Source of the DNA: an uncultured Flaviramulus sp.
Lineage (GTDB): Bacteria > Bacteroidota > Bacteroidia > Flavobacteriales > Flavobacteriaceae
Direction of reading: 5' to 3'
Assembly: GCA_947501105.1 (NCBI GenBank)
Contig: CANMUP010000001.1
Coordinates: 806,001 to 870,000, forward strand
DNA: 64,000 nt
The translations under genes and the position numbers were made by a program. Under the pieces are notes generated by a model, which searched no databases, was not told the DNA's origin, and saw nothing but the letters and a program-made list of their open reading frames with translations. Shown here piece by piece: positions 19,134-22,331 of this stretch; within the stretch, counting starts at the first letter, position 1, and each line of letters opens with the position of its first letter.

Positions 19134-19739
19134 TTAAACTTTTTCCTCAAACTCAACACAGTCAATACGGATTTCAGAATTTTGTAATTCTTTTTCTAAT
19201 AAATTGCAGAAGTGTTGATTACCATTTTTTTGATAAAATTTGCAGCCATAACAAGTGCGCTGAACCGTTAAAACACCTATTTGATTTAATTTGTAAATGA
19301 GTTTACTAAGCGTATTAAAAGTAGACTCTAAACTTTCATTATCAATGGCATTTAATTGTTTTTTTAATGGTTGCGCAAAATTTTCGGTTTCAGAAACTAT
19401 AGTTTTACCTGTATCTGATAATTGTATCGCATAGCTTCTACTATCTGATGAAGAAAACACTTTTTTAATTAATTCTTTTTTATCTAAAACCTTAACTGCA
19501 TCGCTTATTGTGGGTTTAGTAATATTGAATTCTTTAGCAAGATGACTCACATTGCAAAATTCAAGCTTATGATATTTTATAAAAATGAGTATTTGAATTT
19601 GAATAGGGCTTAAGCCTAACAGTTTAGCCTTTTCCCAAAGCAAGACCTTAAATGCTTCAGAAATACGTTCTAACCCAGCTACAATTTTGCTGGAAATATC
19701 AATTTCTTGATGATTGGGATTAAAAATACTATCACTCAT
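19134..19739 (-). CDS. MarR-family regulator with C-terminal four-cysteine module
   Basis: A 201-residue protein, longer than typical MarR (about 140-150). Residues about 30-145 form the winged helix: LGLSPIQIQILIFI, then LAKEFNITKPTISDAVKVLDKKEL as recognition region, then the wing SSDSRSYAIQLSDTG. The added C-terminus holds Cys163, Cys166, Cys178 and Cys194 (CYGC, HFC, IDC), a pattern able to bind an Fe-S cluster or zinc; this is inference. A dyad matching two others upstream of the neighbouring same-strand genes overlaps its own promoter, so it probably represses itself and the cluster to its right. Confidence 0.85.
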   Translation of the reverse strand: MSDSIFNPNHQEIDISSKIVAGLERISEAFKVLLWEKAKLLGLSPIQIQILIFIKYHKLEFCNVSHLAKEFNITKPTISDAVKVLDKKELIKKVFSSSDSRSYAIQLSDTGKTIVSETENFAQPLKKQLNAIDNESLESTFNTLSKLIYKLNQIGVLTVQRTCYGCKFYQKNGNQHFCNLLEKELQNSEIRIDCVEFEEKV

Positions 19740-19747
19740 AAATAAAA

Positions 19748-19771
19748 GCCTGCCGAATGGTATCGACAGGC
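19748..19771 (-). terminator. Terminator of the DUF2024 operon, overlapping the marR start region
   Basis: On the minus strand GCCTGTCGA and TCGGCAGGC pair over 9 bp with one G-U wobble and a 6-base loop, followed by TTTTATTT. The plus strand would have a C-A mismatch, so it favours minus-strand termination. The T-tract runs straight into the marR ATG at 19739. Confidence 0.8.
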
Positions 19772-19790
19772 AAAGTTAGTAATCCTAATT
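19771..19790 (-). promoter_or_regulatory. marR promoter -7 element with overlapping MarR-type dyad
   Basis: On the minus strand TAACTTTG (19771-19778) fits TAnnTTTG. Directly upstream and overlapping it is TTAGGA-T-TACTAA, one mismatch from a perfect dyad TTAGGA-N-TCCTAA. A bound repressor would block this promoter. Transcription would begin inside the left arm of the terminator hairpin, so the marR message would not form that hairpin. Confidence 0.7.
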
Positions 19791-19793
19791 AAA

Positions 19794-20057
19794 TTAGTCA
19801 CAATTTTCCATTTCAATAATTGAAAACCCTTTACTTTTAATATCATTTATGATAGCATCAGTAGCTTGTTCAATATGACAAAACTTACAAATTTTGGACG
19901 ATATGCTTTCTGTTTTAAAGGTTTTACTATTTAAATATGCTGTACCAAAATTCAAAATGACTTGTTCATCATTTAGCTTATTTGGAACTAAAATATCGAA
20001 ATGCATTAGTTTTCCATCTTCTCTTTTTACGTATGTATCCCAAACTGAAACTTTCAT
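19794..20057 (-). CDS. DUF2024-family protein
   Basis: A small 87-residue protein beginning MKVSVWDTYVKREDGKLMHF, the typical DUF2024 opening, with a C-terminal ICKFCHIEQAT segment containing a CxxC pair and a final Cys. No signal peptide, so cytosolic. Function of the family is unknown; the Cys pair is compatible with metal or redox chemistry. It starts 2 bases after the lipoprotein gene stop, so the two are co-transcribed, and it ends just before a terminator. Confidence 0.85.
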   Translation of the reverse strand: MKVSVWDTYVKREDGKLMHFDILVPNKLNDEQVILNFGTAYLNSKTFKTESISSKICKFCHIEQATDAIINDIKSKGFSIIEMENCD

Positions 20058-20059
20058 AA

Positions 20060-20779
20060 TTATTGCTTTACTTTATAAGGTAATGATAAATCGCCACTTG
20101 CAACGGTAAAAACCTCATAAACCCCGAGCATTGGAAGGTTTTCTTTACTCGTGTTAACTTTCATAAAAGCTGTTACAGCATCAAAATTAAAATCGGTTTT
20201 ATGATTTATCCTATAATCTGGAATAATTACTTTAATCGAGTTAGCTTTTGTAATTACGGGGTAACCAGGAGAATCCATATACATAGGCATTCCTGGGTTT
20301 GTAGGCGGTAAAACTATAGATTTGTCGTCTTTATTAAACTGTTTTACCGAAAGCCCTCCTTTTACGCGTTTATCTTCAACTAAAACTACCCAGTGCGGAT
20401 GCCAAATTACGCCATCATTATCGTAGATGGAATCTGAATTTTCATCCCAAAGCGGTGTATCATCAAAATCTGGATGCGAAGTTAGTGCAAGCGCGAGAAT
20501 ACCTTCGGTTTGATTGAAACCTACGTCAGTTGGCTTTAAACTTGTAGGGAATACGTAGCCTAAAACGGGAGCTCCATCTAATTGGCCTGCTTTTTTTGGG
20601 GTTGTTTCACCTGCGTTACCTTTTACTGCGATCTCCCAAACTGTAATTCCTAAATTTGAATCATGGGTGACCTTGGTGGTTGTAATTGAAAAATTATCGT
20701 TTTGATATTCATTGCTTTGACTTTTACAGCTTACTGTGGAAAGAAATAGGGTTACTATAAATAATACTATTGATTTCAT
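20060..20779 (-). CDS. Secreted lipoprotein of unknown function
   Basis: A 239-residue protein with a signal peptide ending in STVSC (lipobox). I do not recognise the family. The mature part is rich in beta-prone segments and holds LALALTSHPDFDDTPLWDEN, then VIWHPHWVVLVED, whose His/Asp/Trp residues might bind metal. It is the first gene of a two-gene unit with the DUF2024 gene and has its own MarR-type dyad in the 51-base upstream gap. Confidence 0.6.
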   Translation of the reverse strand: MKSIVLFIVTLFLSTVSCKSQSNEYQNDNFSITTTKVTHDSNLGITVWEIAVKGNAGETTPKKAGQLDGAPVLGYVFPTSLKPTDVGFNQTEGILALALTSHPDFDDTPLWDENSDSIYDNDGVIWHPHWVVLVEDKRVKGGLSVKQFNKDDKSIVLPPTNPGMPMYMDSPGYPVITKANSIKVIIPDYRINHKTDFNFDAVTAFMKVNTSKENLPMLGVYEVFTVASGDLSLPYKVKQ

Positions 20780-20797
20780 AATATGATATATTTTATA

Positions 20798-20814
20798 AAT
20801 TAGGATTCCTAACT
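20798..20814 (-). promoter_or_regulatory. MarR-type operator before the lipoprotein-DUF2024 unit
   Basis: AATTAGGATTCCTAACT contains the perfect dyad TTAGGA-T-TCCTAA. It sits 20 bases ahead of the lipoprotein start at 20779. The same dyad recurs in front of marR and of the thioredoxin-like gene. Only a weak -7 candidate (TAATTTAT on the minus strand) is adjacent. Confidence 0.7.
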
Positions 20815-20830
20815 AATTGTGATAAAAAAA

Positions 20831-21064
20831 TTACCCTTTTACAGCTTCCATCGAAGCTCCAAAATTAATATGTAGCACATTTCCGTTTGGTGTTACTAAA
20901 GCCGGAACTGATTTTACACCAGCATTTTCTGCTTCGGTAATTCTTGAATTGTCTTCTCCAAAGTGCACAATGTCTACGTTGTCTTTCCCTATTAATTCAA
21001 TAATGTCGTGCTCTGCACTAATACATACAGGGCACCCTGCATGATAAAAAATTGATTTACTCAT
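20831..21064 (-). CDS. Small thioredoxin/glutaredoxin-like protein with CPVC motif
   Basis: A 77-residue thioredoxin-fold protein: a first strand FYHAGCPVCISAE with the CPVC redox pair at Cys11 and Cys14, a cis-Pro in KSVPALV, and a final strand NVLHINFG. Length suits a glutaredoxin-like or NrdH-type protein. No signal peptide, so cytosolic. It has its own promoter (TATATTTG) with a MarR-type dyad. It probably takes part in thiol redox chemistry; the partner is not known. Confidence 0.85.
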   Translation of the reverse strand: MSKSIFYHAGCPVCISAEHDIIELIGKDNVDIVHFGEDNSRITEAENAGVKSVPALVTPNGNVLHINFGASMEAVKG

Positions 21065-21092
21065 AATGTTATGTTTTAAATTAATTATGGTA

Positions 21093-21118
21093 CAAATATA
21101 GTAAGGAATCCTAACTAA
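21093..21118 (-). promoter_or_regulatory. Promoter and MarR-type operator of the CPVC thioredoxin-like gene
   Basis: On the minus strand TATATTTG (21093-21100) is a perfect TAnnTTTG element. Directly upstream, AGTTAGGATTCCTTACT holds the dyad TTAGGA-T-TCCTTA (one mismatch). The dyad fills the space just upstream of the -7 element, where a bound repressor would exclude polymerase. The start codon is at 21064. Confidence 0.75.
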
Positions 21119-21169: not shown

Positions 21170-21583
21170 TTAGGTTAAAAACGCCCTTAGTTTTTGGGTT
21201 ATAAACATATCCCATGTTGAGGAACAAACCTCAAAACAATGCAGCTGAGGTGTTAAACCAATCTGATTGAAATTAAGAATAGTTTTGGTTTCTTTTTCTT
21301 CTATTTGCCAATGTAACACATGCCCAATCCATTCTTTATTAAAATCGGGTTCGCCACCAATACATTTCCAAACCAACTCTTTGTTTGGAGTGTATTCAAG
21401 AATTTTAAATGTCCACCAATATTCATTTTCAAAAGTAATAGTAAATTGGCCGCCAGTTTTAAATTGAAAGTTACTTTTTTTTCCCCACCAATTATGAATG
21501 CCGTCATTTAAAGCATAAAAAACTTGTTTAGGGCTTGAAGAAAATTCAATTTGATGAGAGTAGTTTGTTATTGAATCAATCAT
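21170..21583 (-). CDS. SRPBCC (START/Bet v1-like) domain protein, second copy
   Basis: A 137-residue cytosolic protein of the AHSA1-type SRPBCC fold: IEFSSSPKQVFYALNDGIHNWW at the start, GGQFTITFENEYWWTFKILEY, and a Trp-rich C-terminal helix region (CSSTWDMFITQKLRAFL). The fold makes a hydrophobic pocket; the ligand is unknown. It follows the ArsR gene with no gap (stop and start abut) in a three-gene unit. Confidence 0.82.
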   Translation of the reverse strand: MIDSITNYSHQIEFSSSPKQVFYALNDGIHNWWGKKSNFQFKTGGQFTITFENEYWWTFKILEYTPNKELVWKCIGGEPDFNKEWIGHVLHWQIEEKETKTILNFNQIGLTPQLHCFEVCSSTWDMFITQKLRAFLT

Positions 21584-21910
21584 TTAGCTGTTTTTTGTGT
21601 TTAAGAAATCTTCTAAATTCTGAAGTTTATCATCCCAGAATTGTTCGTAAAACTTAATCCATTTATTAACTTCTTTAAGAGGTTTTGCATTGGCATTACA
21701 AAAACGTTCTCTTCCTTGTGTGTTAATATAAACCAAACCAGCCTCTTCTAAAGTTTTTATATGTTTAGTTACACCTTGCCTTGTGATATCAAATTGATTG
21801 GATATTTGAGTGATAGACAATGCTGAAGTTGCAATCACTAAGGCGTGAAAAATATCACGCCTTGTTGGATCTGCAATGGCTTTAAATAGTTTTGTTATTT
21901 TATCCTGCAT
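21584..21910 (-). CDS. ArsR-family winged-helix repressor
   Basis: A 108-residue regulator: LFKAIADPTRRDIFHALV, then ALSITQISNQFDITRQGVTKHIKTLEEAGLV as the helix-turn-helix and wing. It lacks the ELCVCD-type metal site, so it is probably not a metal sensor. ArsR genes paired with SRPBCC genes are common; here it lies between two, overlapping the first by 11 bases. Two CGCAAC/GTTGCG dyads upstream of the operon are good candidates for its binding sites. Confidence 0.88.
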   Translation of the reverse strand: MQDKITKLFKAIADPTRRDIFHALVIATSALSITQISNQFDITRQGVTKHIKTLEEAGLVYINTQGRERFCNANAKPLKEVNKWIKFYEQFWDDKLQNLEDFLNTKNS

Positions 21911-22331
21911 TAACTTCTTGTTTTAAATAGCTTGTTAAACCAGAAATGCAATTATCCCATCCGCCGTTAAAGCTTTCAAACATGGCAACTGCAGTTTCTC
22001 CTGCATAGTTAGAAATATCTGAATGTTCTAAAGATAATTTAGTGCCGTTACTTGTTGTTTCTAATTCCCATTTAACAGTGGTTTCAACTTTAGTATCGGC
22101 AACTATCCAAGTGTATATAAGCACATACGGGCTCGCATTTTTAACCTCACCACTTATTACTGTACAGCCTTTTTCGTTTGGAGGAGACGTAAATGTATAC
22201 TTATAACCCTTTTCTGCTTTAAAATCTGCTGGGATAAACCAGGTAGAAATTTCTTCGGCTTTTGTAATAGCATTCCAAACCACATCTATAGCATGATTTA
22301 AAACGGCCTCTTTTTTAATAACATCATTCAT
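21900..22331 (-). CDS. SRPBCC (AHSA1-like) domain protein, first copy
   Basis: A 143-residue cytosolic protein of the SRPBCC fold with typical opening VLNHAIDVVWNAITKAEEISTWF, central VISGEVKNASPYVLIYTW, and a C-terminal helix ending FNGGWDNCISGLTSYL. It leads a three-gene minus-strand unit with ArsR and a second SRPBCC protein. Ligand and role are unknown; pairs of this kind are usually autoregulated by the ArsR member. Confidence 0.85.
   Translation of the reverse strand: MNDVIKKEAVLNHAIDVVWNAITKAEEISTWFIPADFKAEKGYKYTFTSPPNEKGCTVISGEVKNASPYVLIYTWIVADTKVETTVKWELETTSNGTKLSLEHSDISNYAGETAVAMFESFNGGWDNCISGLTSYLKQEVNAG

Follow-up and report, generated by a model that had tools for sequence, protein, structure and literature searches.

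A MarR-type regulator with a C-terminal four-cysteine tail and its conserved palindromic site in an uncultured Flaviramulus sp.: a candidate nitric oxide-responsive repressor

Apart from ArnR, the bacterial sensors known for nitric oxide (NO) are mainly Rrf2, CRP/FNR-type and NorR proteins. ArnR is a MarR/ArsR-like winged helix-turn-helix protein with a C-terminal, cysteine-bound [4Fe-4S] cluster and is an NO-responsive repressor of hmp (PMC12343034); in Corynebacterium it represses narKGHJI and hmp, and the same source describes its homologues as occurring almost only in Actinobacteria and its C-terminal part as being without homology (PMC12343034). Here we analyse a window of DNA, i.e. the whole stretch of 64,000 nucleotides at positions 806,001 to 870,000 of contig CANMUP010000001.1 (assembly GCA_947501105.1) of an uncultured Flaviramulus sp., in which an operon encodes a CPVC thioredoxin-like protein, a secreted protein, a DUF2024 protein and a MarR-type regulator having four cysteines in a C-terminal tail (the Cys4 tail). 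Based on sequence comparison, we lean towards the reading that the regulator is a repressor, with the Cys4 tail as its sensor, that answers to NO or reactive nitrogen. Since ArnR already works in this way, with a MarR/ArsR-like winged helix, a C-terminal cysteine sensor part, repression of an NO-detoxifying globin gene and loss of DNA binding with NO, such a mechanism would not be new in principle, but the cysteine set differs, with three conserved cysteines in ArnR, which hold the [4Fe-4S] cluster, and four here, and so does the effector set, the two being set apart by description, not by alignment.

The other described systems are also alike only in part. NsrR and the Rrf2 NO sensors repress NO-defence genes, as stated in PMC12343034, and Rrf2 genes adjoin some of the present loci, but they belong to another protein family, the present regulator passing the MarR_2 cut-off and not that of Rrf2. 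OhrR, other thiol-based MarR sensors and BmoR, a MarR-type protein that affects the thiol/disulfide balance in Bacteroides fragilis according to PMC6158253, share the MarR fold, autoregulation and thiol or redox targets, whereas here the four cysteines lie in an added tail and the targets are neither Ohr nor BmoR's pyridine nucleotide-disulfide oxidoreductase. The SlyA/MepR group shares the fold of the first 145 residues, but its structural match leaves the Cys4 tail uncovered and the core GGAnTCC differs. The SlyA operator is TTAGCAAGCTAA, with TTAG...CTAA ends like those of the present dyad. CioR of Chromobacterium violaceum is a MarR-type repressor of a gene set protecting against NO, but it represses cytochrome bd, and a cysteine tail is not among the features described in the accessible text (PMC11837568); being of the GbsR type, it was dropped as a relative of the present regulator.

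Candidate operators in the operon

The genes lie on the minus strand in the order CPVC, secreted protein, DUF2024 and MarR, and the features of the locus, read in the direction of transcription, are as follows.

21100..21116, minus strand: candidate operator O1, AGTTAGGATTCCTTACT, 17-bp form, preceding the CPVC gene
21093..21100, minus strand: −7 element TATATTTG of the CPVC promoter, predicted from sequence, with one base common with O1
20831..21064, minus strand: CPVC thioredoxin-like protein, open reading frame (ORF) of 77 aa, first gene of the operon
20798..20814, minus strand: candidate operator O2, AGTTAGGAATCCTAATT, beginning 17 bp past the last base of the CPVC stop codon
20060..20779, minus strand: secreted protein or lipoprotein, ORF of 239 aa, with no known family or fold match
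19794..20057, minus strand: DUF2024 protein (PF09630), 87 aa, with a CKFCH motif and a C-terminal cysteine
19774..19790, minus strand: candidate operator O3, AATTAGGATTACTAACT, 17-bp form, preceding marR
19771..19778, minus strand: −7 element TAACTTTG of the marR promoter, predicted from sequence, overlapping O3
19748..19771, minus strand: terminator-like hairpin between the marR −7 element and the marR start
19134..19739, minus strand: MarR-type regulator, 201 aa, with the C-terminal Cys4 tail C163, C166, C178 and C194

The 13-bp core TTAGGA-N-TCCTAA of the dyad is present at 19776-19788 (1 mismatch), 20800-20812 (no mismatch) and 21102-21114 (1 mismatch), preceding genes 4, 2 and 1 of the cluster. 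This confirms the initial annotation of the window, where three dyads with 0 or 1 mismatches had been placed before marR, the lipoprotein–DUF2024 unit and the CPVC gene, two of them touching the sequence TAnnTTTG, which we take to be the −7 element of Bacteroidota promoters: the dyad overlaps it at the CPVC promoter (TATATTTG) and at the marR promoter (TAACTTTG), and the middle site O2 has none. In the window alone the core with at most 2 mismatches is not significant (6 matches against 4.8 expected, with 38 of 100 shuffles reaching 6), and since this loose pattern is at chance level there, the case rests on the 17-bp form and on conservation. In the genome of 4.19 Mb the core with at most 1 mismatch occurs at 16 places, 3 of which fall within 1.35 kb, and the second perfect match is inside a coding sequence. 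The 17-bp pattern AGTTAGGANTCCTNACT with at most 2 mismatches has 4 places in the genome, of which three are O1, O2 and O3 and the fourth falls within a coding sequence.

Association of the regulator with the site among relatives and in other phyla

We compared 60 genomes, i.e. the window's own and 59 relatives, with a close regulator homologue defined by E <1e-40. The regulator was found in 13 of the 60, and the 17-bp dyad with at most 1 mismatch is present in 12 of these 13 (the window's own genome included), as against 4 of the 47 genomes without the regulator, where three of the dyads are inside coding sequence and one (in G006) is outside the listed ORFs with no adjoining TAnnTTTG. The exception among the 13 is G028, in which the regulator is 43% identical and the sites before the CPVC, secreted protein and marR genes are all changed, reading AGTTAGTTAAACTTACT, AGTTAGTTTAACTAATT and AGTTAGGTCAACTAATT. 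The CPVC gene adjoins marR in 12 of the 13. Moreover, one genome (G038) has one perfect extra site before a second, unlinked set of CPVC, secreted protein and DUF2024 genes, and another (G080) has a site before an unlinked pair of CxxC protein and DUF2024 genes. Judged from sequence, the link between regulator and dyad is strongly supported, and so is the compact MarR regulon that the initial annotation had suggested: operon and dyads are conserved with the regulator in related genomes, promoter sites occur only in those of the examined genomes that have the regulator, the second operon is unlinked and the G028 sites are changed.

A larger sample shows the same association. The search of named genomes with the CPVC protein provided the best 80 of 585 loci, nearly all from Bacteroidota, with one labelled as a metagenome-assembled genome of Acidobacteria and one labelled 'bacterium', and the regulator is nearby in 72 of these 80. 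Because the position weight matrix used for the scans of the O2 spacing, the hairpins and the P460 and protoglobin dyads was trained on the same loci, the main upstream count used the window-derived core as initially written. Allowing at most 2 mismatches, we find this core no further than 150 bp upstream of the CPVC start in 75 of the 79 loci having enough sequence (63 at no more than 1 mismatch) and within 150 bp upstream of the secreted protein gene in 16 of 17 loci, of DUF2024 in 22 of 46 and of marR in 33 of 72, while the rest of these loci gives 34 matches in 714 kb, i.e. 0.007 per 150 bp. Of the four CPVC loci without an upstream core, three are also without a regulator nearby and the fourth, L110, has one. 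The palindrome covering the −7 elements of the marR and CPVC genes is conserved in relatives, and 78 of 99 CPVC loci have a near-symmetric 17-mer that shares bases with TAnnTTTG, in most cases in a single register. At the level of the class, the site together with the −7 element at no more than 2 mismatches is found in 33 of 395 genomes, compared with 5 for the reversed pattern, and the regulator in 34 of 295 genomes. It is noted that the CPVC loci overlap the class-level loci, with L073 and L142, and likewise L093 and L145, having identical upstream letters.

The association also extends to other phyla. Searching plasmids with the window regulator gave 60 records that are 22-48% identical, and 17 regions were examined; Deinococcota, Cyanobacteriota and Pseudomonadota have regulators that share the four C-terminal cysteines. 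The core with at most 2 mismatches is present somewhere in 13 of the 17 regions, with mononucleotide shuffles giving 0 to 0.85 per region. Perfect copies are found in two of three Thermus regions, where they precede the P460 gene, in Spirosoma and, twice, in Nostoc, and TAGGAnTCCTA is kept exactly in 9 of the 15 regions outside Bacteroidota. The core is weak in Agarilytica (L285), where it stands behind the protoglobin gene, has 2 mismatches in Hymenobacter (L281), and is absent from 4 of the 17 regions (L280, L289, L290 and L293). These comparisons strongly support the conservation of the operon, the identity of the operator and its pairing with the regulator.

That the dyad is an RNA hairpin or the site of another factor, instead of the regulator's operator, is a reading that we regard as very improbable. 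It would account for the placing of the site after the CPVC gene, which begins 14-20 bp past the stop codon in 58 of 79 loci, regardless of which of three genes comes next, and which in 22 of 58 distinct sequences forms the tip of a longer terminator-like hairpin in which 6 or more of 8 outer pairs form (e.g. L056, L067, L113 and L123). In all 58, the mean pairing of the outer stem is 0.60, compared with 0.37-0.49 for slid registers, and most positions show several pair types, but only five or six of the eight are distinguished from column shuffles, the pairs 3/31 and 8/26 not being among them. O1, however, lies upstream of the start and overlaps the −7 element, and its sequence is kept instead of covarying; moreover, sites and regulator occur together, unlinked copies included, and in G028 the sites have all changed. 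Of 59 sites after the CPVC gene, 27 are followed by a −7 element, which often forms part of the hairpin stem together with the operator. A DNA loop between O1 and O2 was also considered and was rejected on their spacing, which gives no helical phasing (coherence 0.02, with a mean of 0.10 in 1000 re-paired sets).

A hairpin of another kind is present in the marR leader. From 117 marR loci we obtained 45 distinct leaders having a matching −7 element within 60 bp, the other 72 loci being unscored because they have no match, a longer leader or a duplicate. In these flavobacterial leaders a terminator-like hairpin stands directly after the marR −7 element in 33 of the 45, with differing stem letters. 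For the 33, which were selected for having the hairpin, the mean folding free energy (dG) is −12.7 and the mean z-score −4.3, and for the 39 leaders that were folded (six short ones being omitted) z is −3.6, all z-scores being based on mononucleotide shuffles. The window hairpin at 19748-19771 is by itself not significant, with 1 found and 1.2 expected in shuffles. We predict that the marR leader hairpin ends the upstream transcript and that the marR transcript begins within this hairpin or shortly ahead of it, driven by marR's own, repressed promoter.

Some CPVC leaders (e.g. L065, L091, L134 and L187) have a short inverted repeat, GGCAATAATGCC or GACAATAATGTC, soon after the −7 element, which is absent from the CPVC leader of the window. 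The hairpin GGCAATANTGCC behind a −7 element gave 48 matches in 18 genomes, 15 of which are CPVC operon leaders by position; the other 33 compare with 18 for the reversed pattern, and we draw no conclusion from them.

The Cys4 tail and the effector proteins

The regulator belongs to the MarR family, with 44.9 bits to PF12802 (cut-off 27; E 1.3e-11) and 28.7 bits to PF01047 (cut-off 24.6). A fold model of it, with a mean predicted local distance difference test (pLDDT) score of 71.9, gives Foldseek matches to MarR structures over about 145 residues with E down to 3.5e-7. These matches cover only the MarR domain, the Cys4 tail lying outside them and having a fold of low confidence in the model, and searches of Pfam and PDB gave no relative of note for the tail. 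The first cysteine of the window regulator is C62. The initial annotation had counted four cysteines in the regulator; the four of the tail are present and invariant, in 13 of 13 aligned rows as well as in 17 of 17 rows formed by the window and 16 plasmid homologues (L293, which its annotation marks as shortened, was omitted). Of the 72 marR loci beside CPVC genes, 69 gave an ORF with the spaced cysteine pattern, the exceptions being L080, which ends within the marR gene, and L061 and L103, where the ORFs (119 and 122 aa) are under the accepted length. The invariance of the four cysteines is thus strongly supported.

Tests of the regulator against other named families gave scores under their cut-offs: 16.5 bits for Rrf2 (PF02082; cut-off 30), 21.5 for OhrR (NF052638; cut-off 200), with no match to the N-terminal reactive cysteine, and 34.3 for AdcR (cut-off 175). 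The NCBIfam model named ArnR, NF041016, gives 22 against 400, and this model presumably describes an archaeal protein. On this sequence evidence we place the regulator in a Cys4-tailed type of MarR protein, outside ArnR, NsrR, OhrR and AdcR. In the open-licence papers searched, we found no description of a Cys4-tailed MarR family and no mention of the operator strings.

The Cys4 pattern itself bears on a second alternative, in which the tail provides a metal site, structural or sensing, and the regulon responds to zinc or copper excess, to Fe-S status or to oxygen limitation, and not to NO itself. That the best NCBIfam match, far under its cut-off, is the zinc-dependent AdcR family, and that the Thermus homologue sits in a respiratory and denitrification cluster, are also consistent with it. 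We consider it improbable, however, given that in the clusters and plasmid regions examined, where neighbours were partly identified, no metal transporter or chaperone recurs, except feoAB about 10 kb off in Thermus.

With respect to the effectors, the CPVC and CKFC cysteine pairs given in the initial annotation are present. The CPVC protein matches PDB 2k8s by phmmer (E 1.3e-23), for which no paper was found in the open-licence literature, and lies under the thioredoxin cut-offs (16.8 of 24.8 for PF13192 and 16.7 of 62 for TIGR00412, MTH895-ArsE), so that it falls outside these families by score; a Novosphingobium relative passes PF13192 with 27.6. C11, C14, FYHAG and SVPALV are invariant in 12 aligned CPVC proteins. 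The DUF2024 protein is a clear member of PF09630 (103.8 bits, cut-off 27; E 4.4e-30) and matches PDB 2hfq (E 1.1e-16). It carries CxxCH, and the orthologues in L091, L135 and L146 show an apparent signal peptide when inspected by eye; a c-type haem could be attached to the CxxCH of such orthologues. For the secreted protein of 239 aa the best Pfam match is under the cut-off (E 0.03), no PDB sequence matches up to E 1, and the best Foldseek match of its model (pLDDT 82.7) in the PDB has E 0.078, too weak to be useful. The stretches HPDFDD, WHPHW and MPMYMDSPG are strongly conserved in an alignment of 19 rows, and a metal or haem site is possible. As to its reading as a lipoprotein in the initial annotation, the window protein does look like one, but the orthologues in L022 and L053 have no cysteine there, as judged by eye. 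In one alignment (A4) the row L159, which is the secreted protein, is misplaced, and no count was based on that alignment.

Nitric oxide-related neighbours and the proposed mechanism

Globins, protoglobin, P460, RIC and NnrS-type proteins bind or remove NO. According to Pfam and NCBIfam, the Bacteroidota clusters contain Bac_globin (read as group III), the Fe-S repair protein RIC (TIGR03652, over its cut-off), hemerythrin and Rrf2, and others contain protoglobin and cytochrome P460. Nine loci (L065, L073, L078, L099, L114, L136, L142, L147 and L154) have a truncated globin gene immediately ahead of marR and codirectional with it, behind DUF2024 in eight of them, L073 and L142 seemingly being from one genome. 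Dyads stand directly before protoglobin genes in L141, L149, L151 and L227, directly before the cytochrome P460 gene in L146, before a P460-like gene in L231 (by eye), and directly before annotated P460 genes in two Thermus regions (L277 and L286). In Thermus the P460 gene is clustered with nitrite reductase and a cbb3-type oxidase-like subunit, which was taken for NorB, and the plasmid of Thermus thermophilus HB27 (NC_005838.1) has a P460–MarR pair; the Hymenobacter region has annotated hmpA, Rrf2, haem protein, protoglobin, DUF2024 and MOSC genes; the Nostoc region has thioredoxin, thiol peroxidase, MOSC and globin; and NnrS and protoglobin are near the Defluviimonas and Agarilytica homologues, respectively. 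In counts, a trHb3, protoglobin or P460 gene is found in 11 of 30 class-level marR loci (about 3.6 kb) and in 9 of 80 CPVC loci, as against 0 of 40 control windows, and RIC in 4 of 80 CPVC loci and in 0 of 40; the controls are windows of 20 kb taken from 12 regulator-bearing genomes at even steps, not randomly drawn, and since the marR and CPVC locus sets overlap, the two sets of this count are not independent. That haem and NO genes accompany the regulator in part of the relatives is strongly supported by these sequences. The thiol or metal stress proposed in the initial annotation thus holds only by half, with the haem globins, P460, RIC, NnrS, flavohaemoglobin and Rrf2 neighbours fitting NO or reactive nitrogen better.

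A signal of the thiol kind deserves consideration in this place. The same repressor might answer to a general thiol oxidant, an electrophile or reactive sulfur, with the tail cysteines forming disulfides or persulfides and with the CPVC and DUF2024 proteins repairing thiols. The commonest partner of the regulator is indeed a CxxC thioredoxin-like protein; thiol peroxidase, redoxin or TlpA genes are near the Nostoc, Sphingopyxis, Shinella, Defluviimonas, Tistrella, Rhizobium and Novosphingobium homologues; and BmoR, as noted above, affects the thiol/disulfide balance of Bacteroides fragilis (PMC6158253). This, however, leaves the protoglobin, truncated globin, P460, RIC and NnrS neighbours unexplained, and the pattern C-x2-C...C...C, invariant across phyla, resembles ligands more than a sensing and a resolving thiol. 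We therefore consider a thiol signal unlikely, while giving it some weight.

Several observations weigh against an NO signal. Protoglobin and truncated globin searches of the window genome gave no match (the search covering these two families, the controls of a P460 search having given no signal), and in 69 of the 80 CPVC loci a scan of the available stretch for six NO-related genes found none of them. RIC is only weakly tied to the regulator, being present in 9 of 13 genomes with it and in 18 of 47 without it, and its co-occurrence was rejected as a test of NO function because it is too weak. The two Paraburkholderia homologues have neither a dyad nor NO genes nearby. Because the query proteins were taken from these loci, some (first) globin and P460 matches are built in. 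Globins have roles in oxygen chemistry, too.

Other neighbours are noted as side observations. The regulator has annotated MOSC neighbours in Hymenobacter, Nostoc, Shinella and Novosphingobium, and in L224 (G385:C1:3986166-3990166) a dyad at 2001 with a −7 element precedes a MOSC-like gene, as judged by eye. Immediately downstream of marR, part of 110 loci have YggS-like genes (22 loci) or AAA ATPase genes (16), e.g. L056-L060, L063 and L066-L068, with one AAA gene (L066) preceded by a dyad. In the window, positions 21170-22331 encode an ArsR-type regulator flanked by two AHSA1 proteins, which adjoins the operon in close relatives only.

With NO or reactive nitrogen as the signal, the pathway that we infer is as follows. 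The MarR-type protein would be a local, autoregulated repressor, the dimer of which binds AGTTAGGAnTCCTAACT and covers the −7 elements of the CPVC and marR promoters; repression is proposed because the dyad overlaps the −7 element, where binding should block the promoter. The repressor would also occupy the third site, after the CPVC gene. The Cys4 tail would hold an Fe-S or metal centre (or a set of reactive thiols), which NO or a related reactive nitrogen species, e.g. hydroxylamine, would destroy or modify, so that the repressor releases the DNA. Upon the release, the CPVC protein, the secreted protein and the DUF2024 protein would be made as a defence set against thiol and nitrogen-oxide damage, with the CPVC protein acting perhaps as a denitrosylase or as a general disulfide reductase, and the relatives would add NO-binding haem proteins to the same regulon.

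More tentatively, we propose that these regulators may form an undescribed family of NO repressors, in which a MarR dimer with a Cys4 tail (Fe-S or metal) that is without a Pfam or PDB relative, present in at least four phyla and having the near-invariant core TAGGAnTCCTA, controls three uncharacterised effectors as well as haem proteins that bind NO, with operator and −7 element lying within a terminator stem in some members of the family. The observation itself extends far beyond the window. If the reading is true, a MarR-type sensor and its operator would be conserved from Thermus to Nostoc to marine flavobacteria, and a working context would be provided for DUF2024, for the CPVC protein, a relative of which has been solved as 2k8s, and for the family-less secreted protein. 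TAGGAnTCCTA would then be a simple sequence handle for nitrosative-stress genes in many little-studied bacteria.

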